From positions 1 to 64,000 of the forward strand of contig ASRH01000002.1 of NCBI GenBank assembly GCA_000565255.1: a stretch of DNA of 64,000 bases. The letters are read 5' to 3'. How positions within the stretch are numbered: the first letter of the stretch is position 1; each line of letters starts with the position of its first letter. This document shows, piece after piece, positions 39,003-57,268 of the stretch. Source of the DNA: Candidatus Aramenus sulfurataquae (GTDB lineage: Archaea; Thermoproteota; Thermoprotei_A; Sulfolobales; Sulfolobaceae). The position numbers were made by a program, and so were the translations under genes. Below the pieces are notes generated by a model, which worked only from the letters and a program-made list of their open reading frames with translations, was not told the origin of the DNA and made no database searches.

Positions 39003-39950
39003 ATGAGCGACAGATACGGTAGACCGTTGGAGGACTTGAGAATAACTTTAACACATGTGTGCAACTTCTCGTGCTTCTTCTGTCACATGGAGGGGGAGGG
39101 ACTTGAAAAGCTACAAGGACTTGGATTGGAAGACATACTCCTAGTGGCCAAGGTCTCAAGGGAATTCGGAGTGAGGTCAGTAAAGCTGACCGGCGGGGAA
39201 CCAACGCTTAGGAAGGATTTGCTTGAGGTCGTGAGGGGCATTAAGGGCCTAGGTATTGGGGACGTCTCGATGACCACAAACGGAGTCCTCTTGGGCAGTT
39301 TAGCAGAGAAGTTAAAGGAAGCGGGCCTTGACAGAGTTAACGTAAGTCTTCACGCTGTTAGTAGGGAGAAGTTCAGGGAAATAACTGGGGTAGATGCTTT
39401 CGACAAGGTAATATATGGAATAAAAAGGGCAGTAGAAGTCGGCTTGAGGCCTGTTAAGCTGAACTACGTTGTCAACAAGAAGAATGAGGACGAGGTGTTC
39501 TCCTTCCTAGAGTTAGCCCAAGGACTTGGAGTGGACGAGGTCCACTTGATTGAGCTCCACCCAGTGGGACTGGGGAAGGAGTACTTCTCCTACCACGAAG
39601 GGTTGGGAAAAATAGAGGGGTTCCTAAAGCGCAACTCGCGTAGGGTAGAGGTGAGGAACAAACACTTTAGGCCAAGGTATTACTTAGACGGCGGGCTTGT
39701 CGTGGAGGTAGTGAAGCCTTACGCTAACCCTGTCTTCTGTGCTGGATGTAACAGGATAAGGTTGACCGCTGACGGCAAGCTAAAGACTTGTCTGTACAGG
39801 GATGATAAGGTAATAGACATAAGACACGCTTTCGACCCTAGTATGGACGAGTGGGAAAAGGAAGAGTTAGTTAGACACGCGTTTCAGATAGCAATGTCTA
39901 TTAGGGAGCCAAACTTCAAGTACATATATGAGACTAGACAAGCTCGCTAA
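39003..39950 (+). CDS. moaA: GTP 3',8-cyclase (molybdenum cofactor)
   Basis: Radical SAM enzyme that starts molybdopterin synthesis from GTP. The N-terminal cluster motif is CNFSCFFC (Cys20, 24, 27), followed by [11 protein letters not shown]. The second 4Fe-4S cluster is bound by [18 protein letters not shown] near residue 250. The length of 315 is normal. The last codons overlap the pepQ start by 23 bases. A molybdenum or tungsten enzyme is expected elsewhere in the genome. Confidence 0.95.
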
Positions 39951-41680: not shown

Positions 41681-42577
41681 ATGAAAGAAAAGGGGAAGGA
41701 CTTACTACTTAGGATACTTGCAGAACGCGGTTCACTTCCTCAGTCGGAGCTCGTGAGGCTCTCCGGCCTCTCCAAGAGCAGAGTATCTGAAATCCTTTCA
41801 GAGCTAGAGAGGGAGGGTTTAATAGACAAGAGGGTGCTTGCAGGGAAGAACTTAGAAATATCGCTAAAGAGGTCAATAAGGATAGGCATAATTAGGGCGG
41901 CTGAGTACCCATTTGTCATTCCCTTCTACAAGAAGCTGAAGGAAAACGGCTTCATTCCAAAGTTGGTGGTCTACGAGAACGGAGTAGAGCTAACAAAGGA
42001 CCTCGCCCTCGGTAAGATAGAAATAGGCTTCTCGCCAGTGGTGACCCAGCTGATCTTCTCTAAGGCCTTTCCTATAAAGATCGTGGCTGGAGGGGCAAAG
42101 GGGGGTGCAGGAGTTGTGGGCGAGGGTTGCAAGGTGGGATCTACTGTCCTTTCTAGCATGGAAGTGTGGACGCTTTCTGAGATAAAAAACGCCCAGATAG
42201 TACCCTTTAACTCGCCAGAGGAGATGATAAGGGCGCTGAGGGAAGGGAAGGTGGGATCTATAGCGATTTGGGAGCCCTTCTTCTCCACGCTTAGGGCTAA
42301 CGGCTTTAAGGTCTCCCACGTTTTCGAACCTATACACTGCTGTACTATGGGTGTAAGGGAGGGGGTAGACGACGAGAAGATAAAGAGGATTTACGAGGAG
42401 TCGTTTACTTGGTTTCTGGAGAGTAAGGACAGGTGGATTCCAGACTACGCTAATCTGCTAGGGGAGGACTACAATGTGATGGCTAAGGCAGTACAGAGCT
42501 ACACTTTCGATAGCTACCTAGATCTAAGAGAAGTGGAGAGGAACTTGAAAAAAAGCGGGATTTACATACCTTCTTAG
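41681..42577 (+). CDS. Winged-helix regulator fused to a substrate-binding domain
   Basis: Residues 1-60 form a winged helix (SQSELVR-type: [20 protein letters not shown], then a wing with [10 protein letters not shown]). Residues 65-298 resemble the NMT1/SsuA class of periplasmic binding proteins, with [29 protein letters not shown] and [15 protein letters not shown]. There is no signal peptide, so the ligand is probably sensed in the cytoplasm. This looks like a one-component sensor, with ligand unknown; a thiamine precursor or sulfonate-like molecule would be the family analogy. It converges on glnA with a four-base overlap, and folE is 22 bases upstream. Confidence 0.72.
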
Positions 42578-43989
42578 GAGTCTAAGTAGTAGTACAGCTC
42601 CATTGGGTGTGGATACATCTGAAGGGTCTTGGTCTCTTCTCTCTTTAAGTCTATGTAAGTGCTTAGTATTGACGAGTTGAAGACTGGCTTTAGGAACTCG
42701 TTGTCGCTCTCCAGTTCGTCCAGTGCTTCGTCCAACGACCTCGGTAGGTCCTTAATGCCCAAGGCTTTCTTCTTCTCTGGAGACAGATGGTAGATGTTCT
42801 CGTCTACTGGATCCCCTGGGTCTATCTTCTTGTTTACCCCGTCCATTGCCGCCATCAGAATGGCGCTGAACGCTAGGTATGGGTTGCACGAGGGGTCAGG
42901 AGCCCTGTACTCTAGTCTCTTTGCTTTCTCCATGCCCTTGTAGTAGGAGGGTATCCTAATTATGGCGCTCCTGTTACCCTTGCTCCAAGCTACGTACACA
43001 GGGGCTTCAAATCCTGGTACTAGCCTCCTGTAGCTGTTGACAGTAGGTGATACTATTGCCGACAAAGCCCTAGCGTGTGCCAATATACCTCCAACCGCGT
43101 ACCTACCGAACTGGCTCAGCTCTGCGTACTCGTCGTTTGGATCGTACATGAGGTTCTTCTTACCGTCCTTAGTCCACAAGCTGAGGTGGGTGTGCATCCC
43201 TGTTCCGTTATCGCCGAACATAGGCTTGGGCATAAAAGTGGCAATCATCCCGTGCTTAGCAGCCACGTTCTTCAAGACGTACTTGAGAGTCTGTACCTTG
43301 TCTGCAGTGTCAGCTAGCGTGGAGAACATAAAGTCTATTTCTCCTTGGCCTGCAGTTGCAACTTCGTGATGGGTAGCCTCTATGATGAACCCGAAGTACT
43401 TAGTCAACACGTTGATCGCTTCAAGCCTAACGTCAAATAGTTGGTCTACTGGGGGCGCAGGGTAGTAGCCTTCCTTGTACCTTATTAAGTGGCCGTTGGT
43501 GGTCTGCCAGGGGGCTTCCCTAGCGTAGATCTTGTAGCCAGTTCCGCTCTGCGGCAACGCTACGTTAAGCTCTACCTTGTCGAAGACGAAGAACTCGAGC
43601 TCTGGCCCGAAGTAAGAGAGGTAACCTTGTTCACTCTGGTACCTCTCGGCCTCCTCGGCAATGAACCTGGGGTCTCTTTCGAACCTGCCCCTTGCCCCTC
43701 CCCAGAATACTCTAGTCATAACCCTCGCTACTCCTTGGCTCCACGGTACTAGTGCCATGGTCTCCGGTATCGGCTGTAGGACCATGTCGCTCTCGTAGAT
43801 AGTAGTAAAGCCCTTTATGCTGCTACCGTCCAGCTTTCCGAAACCGGTCTTAAAGCTCTCTTCAGTGAAGTCAGCCGCAGGTATGGTGATGTGCTGGAGT
43901 CTTCCGGGTAGGTCGGTAAACTGGAGGTCTACCCACTGGATCTGGTTTTCCTTTAGGAATTTCAGTGCCTCTATTGCATTGGAAGGCAT
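42574..43989 (-). CDS. glnA: Glutamine synthetase
   Basis: Makes glutamine from glutamate, ammonia and ATP. The 471 residues contain [36 protein letters not shown] and the ATP loop NRSAIIRIP, with an N-terminal beta-grasp region. It has the length of the dodecameric type I enzyme. An in-frame TTG at 43998 is upstream, but a TATA box GCTTTTATA (44011-44019) lies 26 bases before ATG 43989, which is chosen. Overlaps the convergent regulator by four bases. Confidence 0.95.
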
Positions 43990-44010
43990 GTCTGACAATT
44001 CGTTAAAGAG

Positions 44011-44109: not shown

Positions 44110-44715
44110 CTAGAAAGTTTTTTGCAAGACGCCCTGATGTATGACGTAATGTCTGTCGGCTAGTTCGGAGTCACTTGCGTCCTGGGTAGTGAATATCATC
44201 TCAATGCTGAGCTTTTTCAAGATGCCAATTACTCCTGCCACGATTTCCCTTTTTTCGCTTATGTTGGAGAAGGCTTCGTCCACTAGAATCGCCTTGGGCC
44301 TAGACAGTATTGCAGTGGCTATTGCAACCCTTTCCCTCTGCCCAAGGCTCAAGTTCTTGACCTTTCCAGAGAAGTTTATGTTTAAGGCTTCTCTAACTTC
44401 TTTGACCTCCTCTTCACTGACCTTAACTCCCCTTACCTTGGCCCCCCACAGGAGGTGGGACTCCACGCTCTTTTCCGGAATATAGCTCTCCTGGTTAACG
44501 AAGCTGATTCCCCTTTTTTCTGGGGGCAACTTAGTCACGTCTCTGCCTTCCACCTTTACGTAACCCTCGTCTGGCTTTAAAAACCCAGCCAACAAGTGAA
44601 GGAACGTAGTTTTCCCACTTCCGTTTTTCCCAGTGATACAAATAATTCCGGAGTCCTTGAAGTTAGCGTTTAGTTGAAAACTCCCCAACCTCTTCTTCAC
44701 GTTAGCCTCTATCAA
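44110..44715 (-). CDS. Orphan ABC-type ATP-binding protein
   Basis: A compact 201-residue ABC ATPase. Walker A is TGKNGSGKTT, signature LSLGQRERVAIA, Walker B ILVDEAF and a C-terminal His/Asp-type switch in TQDASDSELAD. The TTG at 44715 (MIEANVKKRL) overlaps the thioredoxin stop; the longer frame from 44775 lies within the thioredoxin gene and is not used. No permease or binding protein is near. The length suggests a ModC/WtpC-like core lacking the C-terminal regulatory domain. Its partner is unknown, so it may serve a permease encoded elsewhere or a non-transport role. Confidence 0.8.
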   Translation of the reverse strand: MIEANVKKRLGSFQLNANFKDSGIICITGKNGSGKTTFLHLLAGFLKPDEGYVKVEGRDVTKLPPEKRGISFVNQESYIPEKSVESHLLWGAKVRGVKVSEEEVKEVREALNINFSGKVKNLSLGQRERVAIATAILSRPKAILVDEAFSNISEKREIVAGVIGILKKLSIEMIFTTQDASDSELADRHYVIHQGVLQKTF

Positions 44716-45103
44716 GGTACTTCGCCAGAGTACCCTCCAGCGTTTCCTCATCCACTGCGCCCACCAGCGAGTCAACCAAGTTACCGTTGACGAAGATTAA
44801 GGTAGTGGGTATGTTGAGTACTTGGTACCTGTCGGCAGTCTTTGGATTCTCGTCTACGTTGAGCCTACCAAAGGTGGCCTTGTCGCTGTACTTTTCAGCC
44901 ACTTTCTCGAATATTGGCTCGTAGAGATGGCAAGGAGAACACCACTCGGCCCAGAAGTCAATAACTACCACTTTGTTCTCCTTAAGCACCTTGTCTACGT
45001 TGTCGTCTGTTATTTTGATTATCTTGCTCTTCTTCACGAATTCCTCTGACTTCTTTTCCAGCCTGCTCGAGATCTCCTTAATTAGGGCGTCTAGTTCACT
45101 CAA
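44702..45103 (-). CDS. Thioredoxin with N-terminal extension
   Basis: A 133-residue thioredoxin. The active site is WCSPC (Cys55, Cys58), a Ser variant of the usual WCGPC, followed by NIPTTLIF with the conserved cis-proline. A charged helical extension of about 28 residues precedes the fold. It starts eight bases inside the AMP-ligase gene and runs into the ABC ATPase gene, so the three are probably one transcript. Confidence 0.88.
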   Translation of the reverse strand: MSELDALIKEISSRLEKKSEEFVKKSKIIKITDDNVDKVLKENKVVVIDFWAEWCSPCHLYEPIFEKVAEKYSDKATFGRLNVDENPKTADRYQVLNIPTTLIFVNGNLVDSLVGAVDEETLEGTLAKYLDRG

Positions 45104-46460
45104 TTTTATCCACTATATACACTCTCTTTAACCTCTTATAAAATGCAACCTTGGAGTTGACGTAGTTTAGGAGCTCCTCCTCAAGTCCCTGCTTTTTCTC
45201 CTTTACGACTACCTTGGCGGACGGTTGTGCACCAGCGTTACCTGCGTCTTCTCCAAAGACGTAGGCGTCCACCACCAGCGGGTGCCCCTTCAGCATTAAC
45301 TCCAAGTCCTTGGGGAAAATTGGGTAGCCCTTGTACTTTATCATCCTCTTCTTCACGCCTTTGAAGTACAGGAGTCCTCTCTCGTCAGCTGAGACTAGGT
45401 CTCCTGTTTTCAACCAGCCGTCGTGGAAGACCTTCGCCGTCTCCTCCTTGTCCTTGTAGCCAAGCATTAGCCAAGGTGCCCTGACCCAGAGCTCCCCAAC
45501 CTCCCCTGGCTTTGCCTCCTTCCCGTCGTCCTTTACTACCTTTATCTCGGCGTTAGGCAGGGGCTTTCCGATGCTGATTACGTCTCCCATATCCTTAGGT
45601 TGATAAGTCACCACTAGGCCCTCAGTGAAACCGTACTGCTGGACGATGGTCTTGCCGAACTTTTGCTTAAACCCGTTAACCGTTGAAGGGAACAGGGGAG
45701 CTGCAGTGCTTATGCAAACCTCAAGTGAGTCGAGCTTACCCTGCTCGTTTATGAGGGCGTCGTAGACCATAGGGACAGTTGCCAGAAAGTTAATGGAGTA
45801 CTTGTTTATTGCCTCAATGGCTTCCTTTGCGTTGAACTTCCTCATCACGTAGATAGACCCGCCGTCCTCTATTACCTCTCCTAGTACGCTATTGCCCAAT
45901 ACGTGTGCTACTGGCACCGTCAAGATTGCTGAAACTCCCTTGAGGCCAATTGCTGTATAGAGGGCAGAGGCGTTTAGCCCAACCCTAGTTGCAGAGTGCA
46001 ATACTTGCATCGTCCTTCCAGCAATTCCCGCGTAATAGTAGATAAGCCCGACCTCGTTGTCCATGTACTCGTAAGGTTTATTAAATACCTCCTTCTTCAT
46101 CCCATCGCTCCACAGCCTGTACCCCTTGAGGACCTCTTTTTCCCTAGCGGAGGTCTCCTCGTCGGCGAAGACTATGTCTGGGTCCGAGTCCTCTAGGATG
46201 AATCTCAAGTCCTCGGCAGAAGTTAAGGGATCAACTGCCACCACCTTTGCCCCTGCCCAGAAGGAGGCTAGGTAGTGGATAATTGACTTGGGGCTGTTGA
46301 ACTCAAAGTGGCCCACCGTATTCCCGGGCGAGATGGCTGAGGCCACAGAGGCCGCTTCCCTGGCGACTTGCTCGTAAGTTAACGTCTCGCCTAGCATAAA
46401 TACCTTGTTCGGCCTCTTCTTATACCACTCGTAGAACTTAAGAGCAAAGCTCATAATCAA
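45096..46460 (-). CDS. Acyl-CoA synthetase-like protein lacking catalytic lysine motifs
   Basis: A 454-residue member of the adenylate-forming superfamily by overall sequence: IVQQYGFTEGLV, GELWVRAPWLMLGYKD and HDGWLKTGDL match core motifs. The phosphate loop normally reading TSGTTGxPKG is YYYAGIAGRTMQVLHS (141-156), without the lysine or the Ser/Thr-Gly pattern. The protein ends at YKRLKRVYIVDKIE, just before the usual PRTxSGK motif with the catalytic lysine. Both features suggest altered or absent adenylation activity. ATG 46454 is a possible start two codons in. Encoded with a thioredoxin and an ABC ATPase. Confidence 0.8.
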   Translation of the reverse strand: MIMSFALKFYEWYKKRPNKVFMLGETLTYEQVAREAASVASAISPGNTVGHFEFNSPKSIIHYLASFWAGAKVVAVDPLTSAEDLRFILEDSDPDIVFADEETSAREKEVLKGYRLWSDGMKKEVFNKPYEYMDNEVGLIYYYAGIAGRTMQVLHSATRVGLNASALYTAIGLKGVSAILTVPVAHVLGNSVLGEVIEDGGSIYVMRKFNAKEAIEAINKYSINFLATVPMVYDALINEQGKLDSLEVCISTAAPLFPSTVNGFKQKFGKTIVQQYGFTEGLVVTYQPKDMGDVISIGKPLPNAEIKVVKDDGKEAKPGEVGELWVRAPWLMLGYKDKEETAKVFHDGWLKTGDLVSADERGLLYFKGVKKRMIKYKGYPIFPKDLELMLKGHPLVVDAYVFGEDAGNAGAQPSAKVVVKEKKQGLEEELLNYVNSKVAFYKRLKRVYIVDKIE

Positions 46461-46482: not shown

Positions 46483-47343
46483 ATGATAAAGGTCATTGGG
46501 CTATCAAGAGTTCACATCACCCTCTTTGACGTGGAGGGAAAGTACGGGAGACTAGACGGGGGTATGGGGGTCGGGCTTAAGTTCCCCAGGGTAGTAGTTA
46601 GGGAGGGGAACTGCGGGAGTTTTGAGGTGGAAGGAGTACCCAAGGTTGGCTACTGCGTCGAGGAGGACTACGAGGAGCACGTGGGGCTAGGTCACACTAC
46701 ACAGTTCCTGTTAGCGTTGGGGAAGCTAGCTTTCGAGAGCAGCTTCACGAGGAAGTCAGCTGTGGAGATAGCCAAGTTGCTGGGCAGAGGCTCTACCTCT
46801 GGGGTAGGAGTCCACGTGTTTGAGGTCGGGGGCTTCGTAGTGGACGGAGGGCATTCCAAGAAAGTGAAAAAGGAGTTCCTCCCCTCGGACTTCTCTAGGG
46901 CGCCTCCGCCTCCCCTCCTCATGAGGGTGGACTTCCCTTGGTACATTTACGTTAACGTTCCAAGGGGAGGGAGGAGGATCTTCGGGAAGGAGGAGCTACA
47001 AGCCTTTAAGGAGGCAAAGGTTGAGGGCGTAGACGCCTTGATGAGGGTAGCCTTCATGGAGTTTGTCCCATCAGTGGTGGAGGGAGACCTAGACGGCGTC
47101 CTTGAGGCCTTAGATGTAATACAGGGGCTTGGGTTCAAGAGAGTTGAATGGGGGTTGCAGACTGAGGAAGTGAGGTCGCTCTCAAAAGCCATGAGGTCGA
47201 AGGGCTTTCCCAACGGTCTCTCGTCCTTCGGCCCAGCCATCTTCACCTTCTGTAAGAAGAGGGAGTGCGAGGAGCTGAAGTCTACTTTTGGCGGTTTTTA
47301 TACCGAGCCTAACAACGAGGGTGCCAAGGTGGTATGGAGCTAG
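46483..47343 (+). CDS. mptG: Beta-ribofuranosylaminobenzene 5'-phosphate synthase
   Basis: Condenses 4-hydroxy- or 4-aminobenzoate with PRPP, the first arm of methanopterin-type cofactors. It belongs to the GHMP kinase superfamily: 286 residues with SRVHITLFDVEG at the start, GLGHTTQFLLALG, and RGSTSGVGVHVFE. The GHMP fold is used here for a C-C bond reaction rather than phosphorylation. With FolE and GlyA in the window it points to a sulfopterin-like one-carbon carrier. Its end overlaps the next gene by ten bases. Confidence 0.88.
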   Translation: MIKVIGLSRVHITLFDVEGKYGRLDGGMGVGLKFPRVVVREGNCGSFEVEGVPKVGYCVEEDYEEHVGLGHTTQFLLALGKLAFESSFTRKSAVEIAKLLGRGSTSGVGVHVFEVGGFVVDGGHSKKVKKEFLPSDFSRAPPPPLLMRVDFPWYIYVNVPRGGRRIFGKEELQAFKEAKVEGVDALMRVAFMEFVPSVVEGDLDGVLEALDVIQGLGFKRVEWGLQTEEVRSLSKAMRSKGFPNGLSSFGPAIFTFCKKRECEELKSTFGGFYTEPNNEGAKVVWS

Positions 47344-52763: not shown

Positions 52764-52779
52764 GTATACATATGTATAC
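52764..52779 (+). promoter_or_regulatory. 16-bp perfect palindrome upstream of slaA
   Basis: GTATACATATGTATAC equals its own reverse complement. It ends nine bases before the slaA TATA box, next to the place where TFB contacts the BRE, so it is well placed as a regulator site. Confidence 0.55.
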
Positions 52780-52787
52780 ACCAACTC

Positions 52788-52796
52788 TTTTATACC
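52788..52796 (+). promoter_or_regulatory. TATA box of slaA
   Basis: TTTTATACC is centred about 34 bases before ATG 52826. Transcription would start near 52818, leaving a very short leader and excluding the longer frame that begins at 52772. Confidence 0.6.
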
Positions 52797-52825
52797 TTTT
52801 GGAAAATGAGTATTCCAGACCTAGT

Positions 52826-55741
52826 ATGGATATGAGTCGAAAGAAAAAGATAGGTTTAACTCTATTGTTGGTATACGCATTTAGCGTAGCGATATTTTTA
52901 ACGACTATAGTAAACGCTTCGAACAGTCAGCCACTGATATTGCAAGTGGTGAACCCAGTAACTGGTCAAAACCTTGCGTGGGGCAGAGAGAACATAACGC
53001 TAGAGTCTGAGTACGTTGCAGTACAGAATCTTAACTTAACCTACAGCCCGCAGACTGCTATACAAGTTACTTTCAAGGTAGTTGAGTCCTACATTAATAA
53101 TTATAAATTCGGTAGCTCCAACTATAACAGTACAGCAAAAGAGTTCGGAATATATACTAAGCCGTTAACCCCTGGTGTGACTTATACGATCTTGAGCACG
53201 TTTACAGCTACTACTACCGAGACCACATGGAGCAGCGACATTTCACCTTACACCTCAAGTGGAAACTTCTATTACGTACAGTTCAACGACACGCCTTCAA
53301 CACCCTTCTACTTCACCTATTCCTCCACTGACAGCTTAATTGGTACCTTGAAAGCTAGCTACGCAAATGTAACTGCCACTATAAGCCAGATACCAATAGA
53401 GGTGCAGGACCTAGGTATAAATAGCGGAGTAGTAGTCAACGTTACAATACAGCCAGTCCTAAAGAATTTACCTTCTATTGAAGTTCCCAACATAAACTTC
53501 TCGGTTCATTTAAACTACACTGAGGTTGGAAGCGATTACATAGTAAACGCCTCATATTACCAAGCTCCTAACACAAATACGTATCAATTCATCAATTACA
53601 TAGTAGATACCGTAACTTCTGTCCCAAGTAATGTTTCTCAGACTGAGGGCATAACTGTATCGTTTGTTGTAAACAAGATTGGTTACATAGCGCTAGTTGA
53701 CCTTGGTCTGTGGTCCAACACGACCACCGTATATGTGAAGGGTATAAACCCCACGCCGTCATCCAATACCGTAAGCTTCAGGCCAGTAGTAATTCCACCG
53801 TCCATGAACGTAGTCTATTCGATGTTCGGCCAGGGCAACGAGGTATTAGCTAACGTAACTGACAACTACATGGTTGCCAATATAACGATATACGCCCCCG
53901 ACGACATCTTAGACTGGTACTTGTCCTCTCCGAACGGAGGGCAAGCTTATGCTTCCCTCAACGAGCCAAGTTCCACTGGAAGTTGGGATCTCGTCAATAA
54001 CGCTGGTCTTTACATGACCCTTTACGTTAACGGCAATGCTGTAAAGTCTATCAACGTACCCCTAGAGCTCTACTACACTAACTCTGGCTACGTACCTTAC
54101 GTGTTCAAGGCGTACGTATCGTTCCTATTGTCTCCAACGAACAACATCGAGGTAGCTCCGAACGCTGTAAGCTCAGCTAGCGGCAGCAGCAGCATGGTTT
54201 ACGTGTTTATCAACCCTGCAGACTTGAAGAACGCTATGATAGTGGCCACCTTCAACGACAGCGACTACGCCGTTCAGTACTACTTCGGCCCAATAGGGAA
54301 AGCTTCCGTAAGTGATAACTTGGCCATAAACGCAACGGCTCCGGTGATACAGTTACCCTCAGTTGCCTCCTTAAGCCAGTCCTACATACCTGGCACCTTG
54401 ACTGATTACGACTACGGCTATCACTACGTTGTGGAGAACGTCACTACCGTAATGCCAAAGTACCCCGTGTTGATAAGCCCACAAGGGAACTCTGAGATAA
54501 TAATTGGGCAGACCGCCTCCCCAACTGAGGCCAGTGTAACTTTGTACTACCCCAACACTCCACCCAACTACAACCCGTCCAACGAGGTACAAGTAGCTAC
54601 GCTAACCTCCGTTACCATAAAGTTCCAGAACGGCACAACGTATAAGATATACCTGGCCTCCACTAACATATCTAGGCTATTCACCAGCTACACTTGGTAC
54701 CAGCTTGGTAACGTGCCACTCCAGCTATGGCAGTACGGGTTTGAGATAAGCTTGCCAGGACTAGAGCAGATATTAGGAATAACACCGCAGCAGGCTACAT
54801 ACGTGTTAAACAACTCTGTGCTATCCATCAATTACTACGATACTATAACTGGGCAGACCATAACTAAGAACATAAAGTTGGTATCCTTGCCAGTAGAGTT
54901 GCAGTTGATTCCACCGAACCAGGGCAAGATACCCATACAGACTATTGGAACACCAATAGCTGACCTACAGCCCGGAGTGAACTTAATATACAACGTCACT
55001 GCGACTACCGGATTTGCCGTTGAGGTGGAACTATCTGACCCAACCTACGGACAGACTGCGTCTGGAACCATATTAAGCGTGCCACTGACAAGCATAACGA
55101 TAATTGGCTGGACTGGTGCGAAGGCGGAGCTATTGTACAACGTCAACAGCACGTTGGCGCTAACTGAGACTGCTCCAGGTAGTGGGCTGTTCGTAGGGTA
55201 CATAATGTTCAACATATCTCCGTTAGGAGCTCCAATCAACGAGACCACGCTGTACGTGGATGGTGTTAAAGTAGGTACGTTATCCCAGTACATTGAAGCC
55301 GCAGAGACCATGACTCTTACCGTTACCATAGCTGGCTTAACATCAACGCCTTTGGTAGCATCTGTACCTATTACTGGAGAGGTCTATACTAACGTATTCG
55401 AGAACGTAACACCTCTAGTGTACAACCCTGTGACTAACCAGCTGTCCTTCTACATGAAGGCCACAATACCCTATAACTACTCCGGCTATGCGGCAATCCA
55501 GATAGTCAACGCTAGCGGAGTCACTGTGTTCGTATATGAGACCTTCTTCCAGCCTCTGCCTAATGAGACCATGAATGAGCTAATAGCCTTCGACTTGAGC
55601 TTAGCGCACTTGGCTCCAGGGACGTACAAGGTGTACGTCTCCGCGTTCACCATCCCAGTAGTGTATCCATCCACCGCTGTAGCTGCATCTGCCAAGCCTA
55701 TAGAGGTTGACTTCGTAATGACGCAGCTGACCATAACCTAA
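52826..55741 (+). CDS. slaA: S-layer protein SlaA
   Basis: The outer canopy protein of the S-layer, the cell's only wall. It has 971 residues from ATG 52826. A signal peptide (basic SRKKKIG, then a hydrophobic stretch starting LTLLLVYAFSVAIFL) ends near VNAS. The mature chain is rich in Ser, Thr, Asn, Tyr and Pro, with many N-x-S/T glycosylation sequons and almost no lysine or cysteine. There is no C-terminal membrane helix. The upstream frame to 52772 is excluded by the TATA position. slaB follows after a T-rich gap, as in other Sulfolobales. Sequence diverges fast between species, so the call rests on size, composition and slaB linkage. Confidence 0.9.
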   Translation: MDMSRKKKIGLTLLLVYAFSVAIFLTTIVNASNSQPLILQVVNPVTGQNLAWGRENITLESEYVAVQNLNLTYSPQTAIQVTFKVVESYINNYKFGSSNYNSTAKEFGIYTKPLTPGVTYTILSTFTATTTETTWSSDISPYTSSGNFYYVQFNDTPSTPFYFTYSSTDSLIGTLKASYANVTATISQIPIEVQDLGINSGVVVNVTIQPVLKNLPSIEVPNINFSVHLNYTEVGSDYIVNASYYQAPNTNTYQFINYIVDTVTSVPSNVSQTEGITVSFVVNKIGYIALVDLGLWSNTTTVYVKGINPTPSSNTVSFRPVVIPPSMNVVYSMFGQGNEVLANVTDNYMVANITIYAPDDILDWYLSSPNGGQAYASLNEPSSTGSWDLVNNAGLYMTLYVNGNAVKSINVPLELYYTNSGYVPYVFKAYVSFLLSPTNNIEVAPNAVSSASGSSSMVYVFINPADLKNAMIVATFNDSDYAVQYYFGPIGKASVSDNLAINATAPVIQLPSVASLSQSYIPGTLTDYDYGYHYVVENVTTVMPKYPVLISPQGNSEIIIGQTASPTEASVTLYYPNTPPNYNPSNEVQVATLTSVTIKFQNGTTYKIYLASTNISRLFTSYTWYQLGNVPLQLWQYGFEISLPGLEQILGITPQQATYVLNNSVLSINYYDTITGQTITKNIKLVSLPVELQLIPPNQGKIPIQTIGTPIADLQPGVNLIYNVTATTGFAVEVELSDPTYGQTASGTILSVPLTSITIIGWTGAKAELLYNVNSTLALTETAPGSGLFVGYIMFNISPLGAPINETTLYVDGVKVGTLSQYIEAAETMTLTVTIAGLTSTPLVASVPITGEVYTNVFENVTPLVYNPVTNQLSFYMKATIPYNYSGYAAIQIVNASGVTVFVYETFFQPLPNETMNELIAFDLSLAHLAPGTYKVYVSAFTIPVVYPSTAVAASAKPIEVDFVMTQLTIT

Positions 55742-55758
55742 AGTTTTTTAAATTTTTC
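55742..55758 (+). terminator. T-rich attenuating terminator between slaA and slaB
   Basis: Two T runs (55744-55749 and 55753-55757) follow the slaA stop. Partial termination here would explain the higher level of SlaA than SlaB seen in the order, which is inference. A TATA-like TTTTTTAAAT lies in the same place, so a separate slaB promoter is the alternative. Confidence 0.5.
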
Positions 55759-55789
55759 TTTAATGAGTACACTGAATGGTGGTGTGTCC

Positions 55790-57268
55790 ATGAAAAGAAA
55801 TGGCTTGTATAAACTAGTGTTGGCGATTTCTTTAGCTCTATACGCACTAAGCCTTATGTCTGTGAGTAGTATAACGAACGCCTCTACGGGAGTTATTATA
55901 TACTCTCCAACCCAGAACGAGCACATACCGTTGATTAATCCCAAACTGTTAGAGTTCAATGTGTCAATCTATGCTCCTCAGTATCCAGGGTATCCTGTCT
56001 CCCTCTACATATATGGCCCCGATGGCATCAAGATGAACGCGCCAGTAGGTATAGGTAACATAGGGTCCAATGGCGCGGAAAACTCCACAGTAATGTTATT
56101 ATCCTCATCCTTTGAGCAGAACGGCCAGCCCTTAGCTCAGTTCGTCCCAGGGGAGTACGTAGTAGTATTGACCATATCTGACGTATACACGGCTAACATA
56201 ACAATATACCTTACATCCGCTAACATAACAACCTTAGATGTCACAGCCTACTCTCAAGGTCAGCCATTGCCTGGCGCAACGATAGAGGTCTACAGCTCCA
56301 CTGGCGCCTACCTTAACCAAAGCGTAACTGGACCTAATGGAGCTGCTCTAATCCAAGTTCCCTACAACCCCACCACAGGGTCTACTTACAAGGTAGTGCT
56401 CACAAAGGCTGGATACGAGGAGAACTCCACCACGGTCACTGTGCCGCCTAACTTCTTTGGACAGTACATGGTCAAGATATACACTCAGCCAGTAGTGCTA
56501 GCAGCTACTCCAGTCTACTTCCAAGACATGGGAATTAGGGAGAACGTTACTACGCCAATTAACGGTGTGTACGCTGCAGGAGCGTTTGAGAACTCTACCT
56601 TCTCCACAATAGTCTACGTGACAATGATGGGAGAGCCAGTAACCAGCGCTACAGTTACTGCGACCTACAACGGGATGACGGTGACTGGTAAGAGTATTGG
56701 CAACGGTCTGTACAACGTATCCATAACAATACCCGTGTTGACCGATAACGTGCCTTACGTGCTTGACGTAAACGTGACCGCCACTTATCAAGGTACTACT
56801 GCGGAGTTTAGCGTACAAGTGGTGGCTACTCCAAACTTGTACCAGGAGATAGCCACGTTGCAGACTGAGGTATCCAACCTAGAGAACGAAGTATCCGTGT
56901 TGAAGTCGGAGTTATCCGGTAACGTGACCATCTTGGAGCAGAACATATCTACCTTGAAGACGCAGATATCTGTCTTGGAGAGTAACATATCTAACATCAA
57001 CTCCGAGCTAGCTACGTTGAAGAATGATGTCGCCAGCCTCAACAGTACTGTAGGTAGCTTGAGCAGTACTGTCAACAACCTTAAGAGCGAGGTAAGTAGC
57101 CTACAGACTGAAGTGAGCTCCCTGAACAGCACAGTTAGTAGCCTACAAAGTGAGGTCAACTCGCTAAATGGTATAAAGACACTAGTGTACGCAGGGTTGG
57201 CACTAGCCGTAATTGGCCTAATAATAGCCATAGTAGCAATAGTCCTAGTAATGAGAAAAGTAGCGTAA
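55790..57268 (+). CDS. slaB: S-layer anchor protein SlaB
   Basis: Stalk that holds the SlaA canopy to the membrane. From ATG 55790 it has 492 residues. A signal peptide (start MKRNGLYKLVLAISLALYAL) is followed by beta-sandwich domains (a carboxypeptidase-like GQPLPGATIEVYS segment is visible), then a long heptad coiled coil (about 350-465, repeated SLNSTVSSLQSEV-type units) and one C-terminal membrane helix (AGLALAVIGLIIAIVAIVL) ending in MRKVA. Many N-glycosylation sequons are present. GGTGGTG, six bases before the ATG, is a Shine-Dalgarno site and favours 55790 over the in-frame ATG at 55763. Confidence 0.93.
   Translation: MKRNGLYKLVLAISLALYALSLMSVSSITNASTGVIIYSPTQNEHIPLINPKLLEFNVSIYAPQYPGYPVSLYIYGPDGIKMNAPVGIGNIGSNGAENSTVMLLSSSFEQNGQPLAQFVPGEYVVVLTISDVYTANITIYLTSANITTLDVTAYSQGQPLPGATIEVYSSTGAYLNQSVTGPNGAALIQVPYNPTTGSTYKVVLTKAGYEENSTTVTVPPNFFGQYMVKIYTQPVVLAATPVYFQDMGIRENVTTPINGVYAAGAFENSTFSTIVYVTMMGEPVTSATVTATYNGMTVTGKSIGNGLYNVSITIPVLTDNVPYVLDVNVTATYQGTTAEFSVQVVATPNLYQEIATLQTEVSNLENEVSVLKSELSGNVTILEQNISTLKTQISVLESNISNINSELATLKNDVASLNSTVGSLSSTVNNLKSEVSSLQTEVSSLNSTVSSLQSEVNSLNGIKTLVYAGLALAVIGLIIAIVAIVLVMRKVA

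Follow-up and report, generated by a model that had tools for sequence, protein, structure and literature searches.

The window, the whole 64,000-nucleotide stretch analysed, contained at 44110–46460 three genes on the minus strand, encoding a ligase-like protein, a thioredoxin and an ABC ATPase (Table 1). Their overlap, already claimed in the preliminary description, was borne out by the coordinates. The TTG start of the thioredoxin gene and the TGA stop of the ligase-like gene shared TTGAGTGA in an 8-nt overlap, and the thioredoxin and ABC ATPase genes overlapped by 14 nt. For the ATPase, the orthologues supported a TTG start at 44715; the start of the long open reading frame, at 44775, had no such support. 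We take the divergent GHMP-type gene to be beta-RFAP synthase-like. We also observed a MoaA-like radical SAM gene at 39003–39950, about 4 kb from the molybdate/tungstate-type ATPase, which would fit a molybdenum-cofactor neighbourhood. Two large secreted-looking proteins of 989 and 501 aa, encoded at 52772–57268, look like the S-layer proteins SlaA/SlaB; the 501-aa protein has a coiled coil, and a membrane segment at its C terminus.

Table 1. Features of the three-gene locus and its flanks.
Feature	Position	Strand	Family or structural match
ANL-fold pseudo-ligase, putatively adenylation-dead acyl-CoA synthetase paralogue, 454 aa	45096..46460	-	PF00501 + PF13193
Pseudo-ligase, alternative in-frame ATG start	46454	-	
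Degenerate P-loop (A3) YYYAGIAGRTMQV, against canonical YTSGTTGxPKGV; Thr/Ser hydroxyls and Lys replaced	46002..46040	-	
A5 motif YGFTE, retained	45621..45635	-	
A7 Gly-Asp, retained; ribose-binding Asp354	45399..45404	-	
A8/hinge segment FKGVKKRMIKYKGYPIFP, rewritten; Val at the canonical Arg, invariant Arg372 at the hinge Asp/Glu, invariant Tyr379	45312..45365	-	
Pseudo-ligase stop codon, before the A10 catalytic-lysine motif; overlaps thioredoxin start	45096..45098	-	
Thioredoxin, TrxA-1 orthologue, 133 aa	44702..45103	-	TIGR01068, PDB 3tco
WCSPC redox motif of the thioredoxin	44930..44944	-	
ABC ATPase, about 201 aa, Wtp/Mod-like	44110..~44715	-	best NCBIfam match WtpC
glnA, downstream; constant neighbour of the thioredoxin and ABC genes, ligase present or not	42574..43998	-	
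Divergent GHMP-type gene, near-constant neighbour in the family	46483..47343	+	

The ligase-like protein (hereafter the pseudo-ligase) belongs to the ANL superfamily by fold and descent, its N-domain and C-domain both scoring above the curated Pfam cut-offs (PF00501, 168.6 bits against 29.9; PF13193, 36.6 bits against 24.5). It shares these AMP-binding and AMP-binding_C families, as well as the A5 and A7 motifs, with the ANL acyl/aryl-CoA ligases. Unlike them, it lacks the P-loop hydroxyls and Lys, the A8 Arg and the A10 Lys, has Arg in place of the hinge Asp/Glu, and is not expected to adenylate. We tabulated the residue switches in 52 intact degenerate proteins against 23 canonical ligases. 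The P-loop [ST]G[ST]TGxPK of functional acyl-CoA synthetases was absent from 52/52 pseudo-ligases, whereas the Thr hydroxyls and the Lys were present in 23/23 canonical ligases. In every pseudo-ligase, Thr residues were switched to Tyr143, to Ile/Val146 and to Ala/Ile/Val147, Pro/Ser/Leu was switched to Thr150, and the Lys was lost. The A8 Arg was replaced by Val, Ile, Leu or Met (52/52), and the hinge Asp/Glu by an invariant Arg372 (52/52). His155, Lys375, Lys377 and Tyr379 were newly invariant, and Lys371 was likewise present in all 52. The protein from the window ended in VDKIE, upstream of PRTxSGK, and so lacked the A10 lysine; all 52 intact pseudo-ligases examined ended before this motif.

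The retained residues lay in the A5 motif (Tyr276, Gly277 and Glu280 in 52/52; T279 in 50/52) and in A7 (Gly353 and Asp354 in 52/52). The A7 Asp contacts the ribose hydroxyls in ANL enzymes (PMC3438747). The following glycine, at the tunnel, was Ala in 16 of the 52 proteins; since the A8 Arg, which also touches the adenylate, is gone as well, even AMP binding may be weak. Residues near the tunnel glycine join in CoA binding, and Tyr460 of MacsMa matters for CoA (PMC10455477); in an alignment by motif, the invariant Tyr379 corresponded to this tyrosine.

Orthologues were found in 21 of the 25 sampled Sulfolobaceae genomes (55–100% identity), and the 20 besides the window's own all had the degenerate loop type and the early stop. 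In wider scans, covering genomes of 84,980 species and 299 genomes of the phylum, the same form appeared in Acidilobaceae, Pyrodictiaceae, Caldisphaera, an Aeropyrum-like MAG, Vulcanisaeta, Pyrobaculum oguniense, Thermoproteaceae and Caldarchaeales/Calditenuaceae. Six copies (L084, L086, L093, L097, L101, L103), whose reading frame seems to be split at least once in the assemblies, were not counted as intact rows. The 299 genomes gave a clear score gap, with 45 loci in 43 genomes above 470 bits and the next match below 396. All 25 newly fetched matches above 470 bits had the degenerate loop, which in one of them reads GIASRT, and no A10 motif; all 11 sampled matches below 400 bits kept both lysines. 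Of the matches from a pattern scan, nine bacterial relatives proved canonical (L089, L091, L092, L094–L096, L098–L100), and L102 was only a fragment that kept the A10 motif. Searches of the literature on SSO0368 and on pseudo-ligases, and of the text of the essential-genome paper, yielded nothing on the pseudo-ligase gene.

In a tree calculated with the P-loop columns left out (quick search, midpoint root), the 52 degenerate proteins formed one clade apart from the 23 canonical ones, with SH-aLRT of 100. The clade spanned Thermoproteota and Caldarchaeales. P-loop loss mapped to one change, which made convergent loss unnecessary, and the pseudo-ligases almost certainly go back to a single ancient origin, as judged from these sequences. 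A frameshift or truncation artefact was ruled out by the identical ending of all orthologues. Moreover, both losses are common to all 52 intact relatives within one well-supported clade, and so reflect neither decay nor sequencing error. The loss of catalytic residues and the absence of the gene from two genera could be read as marks of a decaying pseudogene or a purely structural remnant. This is hardly credible, given dozens of invariant residues across a phylum-wide clade and a dN/dS of about 0.14 (NG86; 0.16 by YN00) against the nearest relative, a same-genus genome; at the codon level, this ratio demonstrates purifying selection.

The alignment thus establishes the loss of the ATP-handling residues, and the pseudo-ligase is very likely adenylation-dead. 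The preliminary description had already noted that the P-loop lysine was lost and that the protein stopped before PRTxSGK, and had concluded that normal adenylation looked impossible, suggesting a role other than fatty-acid activation. Both losses extend to all 52 intact relatives, and no examined member of the degenerate family keeps both lysines. The apparent inability to adenylate is therefore a conserved trait of the whole family, which makes ordinary fatty-acid activation an unlikely role for the pseudo-ligase.

The AlphaFold model of the pseudo-ligase (37 relatives in the alignment) gave the fold with high confidence (pLDDT 92.9). It resembled thioester-forming structures, namely 4CL with AMP and CoA (5bsr; TMq 0.86, rmsd 3.8), MenE (5x8f; TMq 0.87) and 3a9v (TMq 0.88), but not the ATP-bound ones, Mg-ATP 4CL (5bsm; TMq 0.70, rmsd 11.6) and 4fut (TMq 0.73). 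The conformation of each PDB entry was taken from its title and from what is generally known of ANL enzymes. With MenE 5x8f and 4CL 5bsr the model shared the full-length fold except for the missing C-terminal tip (TMq 0.86–0.88). The model of a canonical control, L095 (pLDDT 84.2), behaved in reverse, fitting 5bsm (TMq 0.83, rmsd 2.7) better than 5bsr (TMq 0.68, rmsd 10.7). From the models we infer a thioester-forming (CoA-side) conformation for the pseudo-ligase and an adenylate-forming one for the control, but the contrast is suggestive only, as it comes from one control with a shallower alignment, and it may reflect model bias.

The predicted conformation also bears on whether the family still adenylates by altered chemistry, in which Lys371, Arg372, Lys375 and Lys377 take over from the lost lysines or the phosphate comes from a different donor. 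The rewritten motifs do contain several basic residues that are newly invariant, as well as His155. Nevertheless, the P-loop hydroxyls, the P-loop Lys, the A8 Arg and the A10 Lys were all lost together, and the predicted CoA-side conformation does not favour adenylation either; we regard this explanation as distinctly unlikely.

The thioredoxin belongs to its family on two counts, scoring 108 bits against the TIGR01068 equivalog cut-off of 96.8 and carrying WCxxC. Its closest PDB match was TrxA-1 (3tco, E=3e-49), which aligned over the whole thioredoxin domain. Unlike 3tco, the window protein has a gene-encoded N-terminal extension of about 25 residues, which is conserved among the orthologues, and its active site is WCSPC against WCAPC in most of them; the motif and the extension reported in the preliminary description are thus both real. 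We are highly confident that this is an ordinary TrxA-1, and the genome encodes at least one other thioredoxin. The gene adjoined the ligase in 21/21 ligase-bearing Sulfolobaceae sampled, mostly with overlapping stop and start. In two genera without a ligase orthologue (g7 and g8; G007, G015, G008), thioredoxin and ABC genes were still adjacent, between the RFAP-synthase-like gene and glnA; with its flanks constant, the locus there simply misses the ligase. In other families, no thioredoxin of the TrxA-1 kind adjoined the pseudo-ligase.

The constant linkage could mean that the pseudo-ligase is a redox-controlled acyl-CoA sensor, with TrxA-1 as a dedicated partner whose target is either Cys249 or a mixed disulfide with CoA. 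Cys249, the single cysteine of the protein, was indeed conserved in the aligned trio orthologues, and the linkage in 21/21 genomes with mostly overlapping stop and start fits as well. However, Cys249 was also found in paralogues without a thioredoxin neighbour, two genera keep the thioredoxin although they have no ligase, and relatives elsewhere have no such neighbour, which makes a dedicated redox partnership unlikely. Nonetheless, most orthologues show the 8-nt coupling to the thioredoxin, and the two proteins may yet be functionally connected.

The ABC ATPase had Walker A, signature and Walker B motifs and matched PF00005 with 91 bits. Its best NCBIfam match was WtpC, at 116.7 bits, far below the cut-off of 440. 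At about 201 aa against the 347 positions of the WtpC model, it lacks the C-terminal regulatory domain. The H-loop His was replaced by Gln (TTQD) here and in most Sulfolobaceae orthologues; L021 keeps the His, and L006 differs. The gene adjoined the thioredoxin and ligase genes in 16/21 genomes and lay elsewhere in two genera (5/21). In genus g4 (read in G004) and in G002, the orthologue stood beside a permease and a binding protein, whose best NCBIfam matches were WtpB and WtpA respectively, an arrangement that these two genera share with WtpABC/ModABC. The window ATPase differs from those systems in being split from wtpAB, in lacking the C-terminal regulatory domain and in the H-loop Gln.

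In the genome of the window, the WtpB and WtpA relatives were found elsewhere (G000:C5, about 143.5–145 kb; L123, L127), with no ATPase within about 5 kb of them. The WtpB-like permease of other sampled genomes was likewise at a separate locus. Within about 5 kb on each side of ten WtpB-type loci, eight had no ABC-ATPase reading frame, and the other two (L130, L136) had a weak or distant ABC-like one 3–4 kb from wtpB. In G011 (L006), the local ABC protein was only 32% identical and may be a different one. The ATPase thus probably drives a molybdate/tungstate importer whose genes are split, with the substrate inferred, because every Wtp-like protein here scores below the curated Wtp cut-offs. 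Once the orthologues had been found beside WtpAB, we set aside a SufC-like or complex-specific ATPase.

The preliminary description had proposed that the three proteins form a new complex, perhaps with an acyl or thiol group carried on the ligase fold. The overlapping genes and the three-gene linkage in 16/21 genomes speak for such a complex. Against it, the ABC gene is unlinked in two genera and is accounted for by WtpAB, the thioredoxin–ABC pair survives loss of the ligase, and no family-wide cysteine or other obvious carrier residue was found across the pseudo-ligases. The complex with its carried group is therefore very unlikely, and an obligate assembly of the three probably does not exist. 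The trio is not a fixed unit: gene order demonstrates that the linkage is dissociable, since conservation in the sampled ligase-bearing Sulfolobaceae held for ligase and thioredoxin (21/21) and for all three genes only in 16/21, the ABC gene being found unlinked in 5/21. The supposed lack of a permease proved correct locally; genome-wide, a matching permease and binding protein were found elsewhere.

Outside the trio, the neighbourhoods point to acyl-CoA metabolism. A canonical acyl-CoA ligase lay within the fetched flank at 25 of 42 loci, a count that excludes the ligase piece at L086, a frameshifted part of the pseudo-ligase; some of the 42 loci are from close relatives, and a few of the flanks are cut. 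With about ten ANL genes in 1,700 and about twelve genes per locus, we roughly estimate that fewer than 10% of loci would have a canonical ligase by chance. Permeases of the HAAT (branched-chain amino acid) type occurred at 16/42. The pseudo-ligase gene was directly downstream of an acetate/propionate-CoA-ligase-like gene in Vulcanisaeta and Caldisphaera, co-directional with ligase-LivH-LivM in Calditenuaceae and Thermoproteaceae, and divergent to a ligase-LivH-LivM operon in Acidilobaceae and Pyrodictiaceae. Distant Sulfolobaceae paralogues adjoined a 3-hydroxyacyl-CoA dehydrogenase/enoyl-CoA hydratase fusion (FadJ), paralogues of 60% identity adjoined PaaX and a 4HBT thioesterase, and thiolase was also among the family neighbours.

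Some further proteins recurred in these flanks. In Acidilobaceae (L058, L060, L062; clusters 21 and 41), copies of a 465–475 aa protein flanked the pseudo-ligase on both sides; a Pfam scan of the L060 copy (cluster 21) and of a neighbour of ~213 aa gave no family match. At L075, L076 and L078 (cluster 31), a 500–590 aa protein was encoded directly downstream, near methylmalonyl-CoA mutase, and its L076 copy had no match in a Pfam scan. A 367–394 aa protein (cluster 23) recurred beside two different pseudo-ligase paralogues (L031–L035), its L034 copy having a lipoate-ligase-like LplA-B catalytic domain.

The ATP-handling parts have been lost in a conserved family, which must consequently have taken on another job. 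We somewhat favour an adenylation-dead ANL paralogue specialised for CoA or acyl-CoA binding, and linked, not obligately bound, to its neighbours. Such a protein would form no acyl-adenylate from ATP, while keeping the ANL fold, the A5/A7 nucleotide residues and those on the CoA-tunnel side, and would probably be held permanently in the thioester-forming conformation. CoA or acyl-CoA is a moderately likely ligand; acyl-AMP with CoA would be another. The protein may regulate acyl-CoA metabolism as a sensor, act as a partner in it, or catalyse just the second half-reaction. Its gene is translationally coupled in Sulfolobaceae to that of TrxA-1 and often to that of the putative split importer ATPase, both products being probably housekeeping neighbours and not subunits. 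A wider reading, which we consider possible if doubtful, is a phylum-wide ANL class that makes no use of ATP, performs the CoA half only and is locked in the thioester conformation, and that serves canonical acyl-CoA ligases and their uptake systems as a second subunit or an allosteric partner; it would take acyl-AMP and CoA as substrates, or acyl-CoA as a ligand.

Because the pseudo-ligases look like long-chain-fatty-acid CoA ligases and have their best scores against them, pathways reconstructed for archaea may include an enzyme that is unable to do the reaction. The probable split importer illustrates how a comparison of gene order between genera can account for an 'orphan' ABC ATPase. An old, conserved ANL clade that appears adenylation-dead would offer a natural test of the CoA half alone in a two-step machine.
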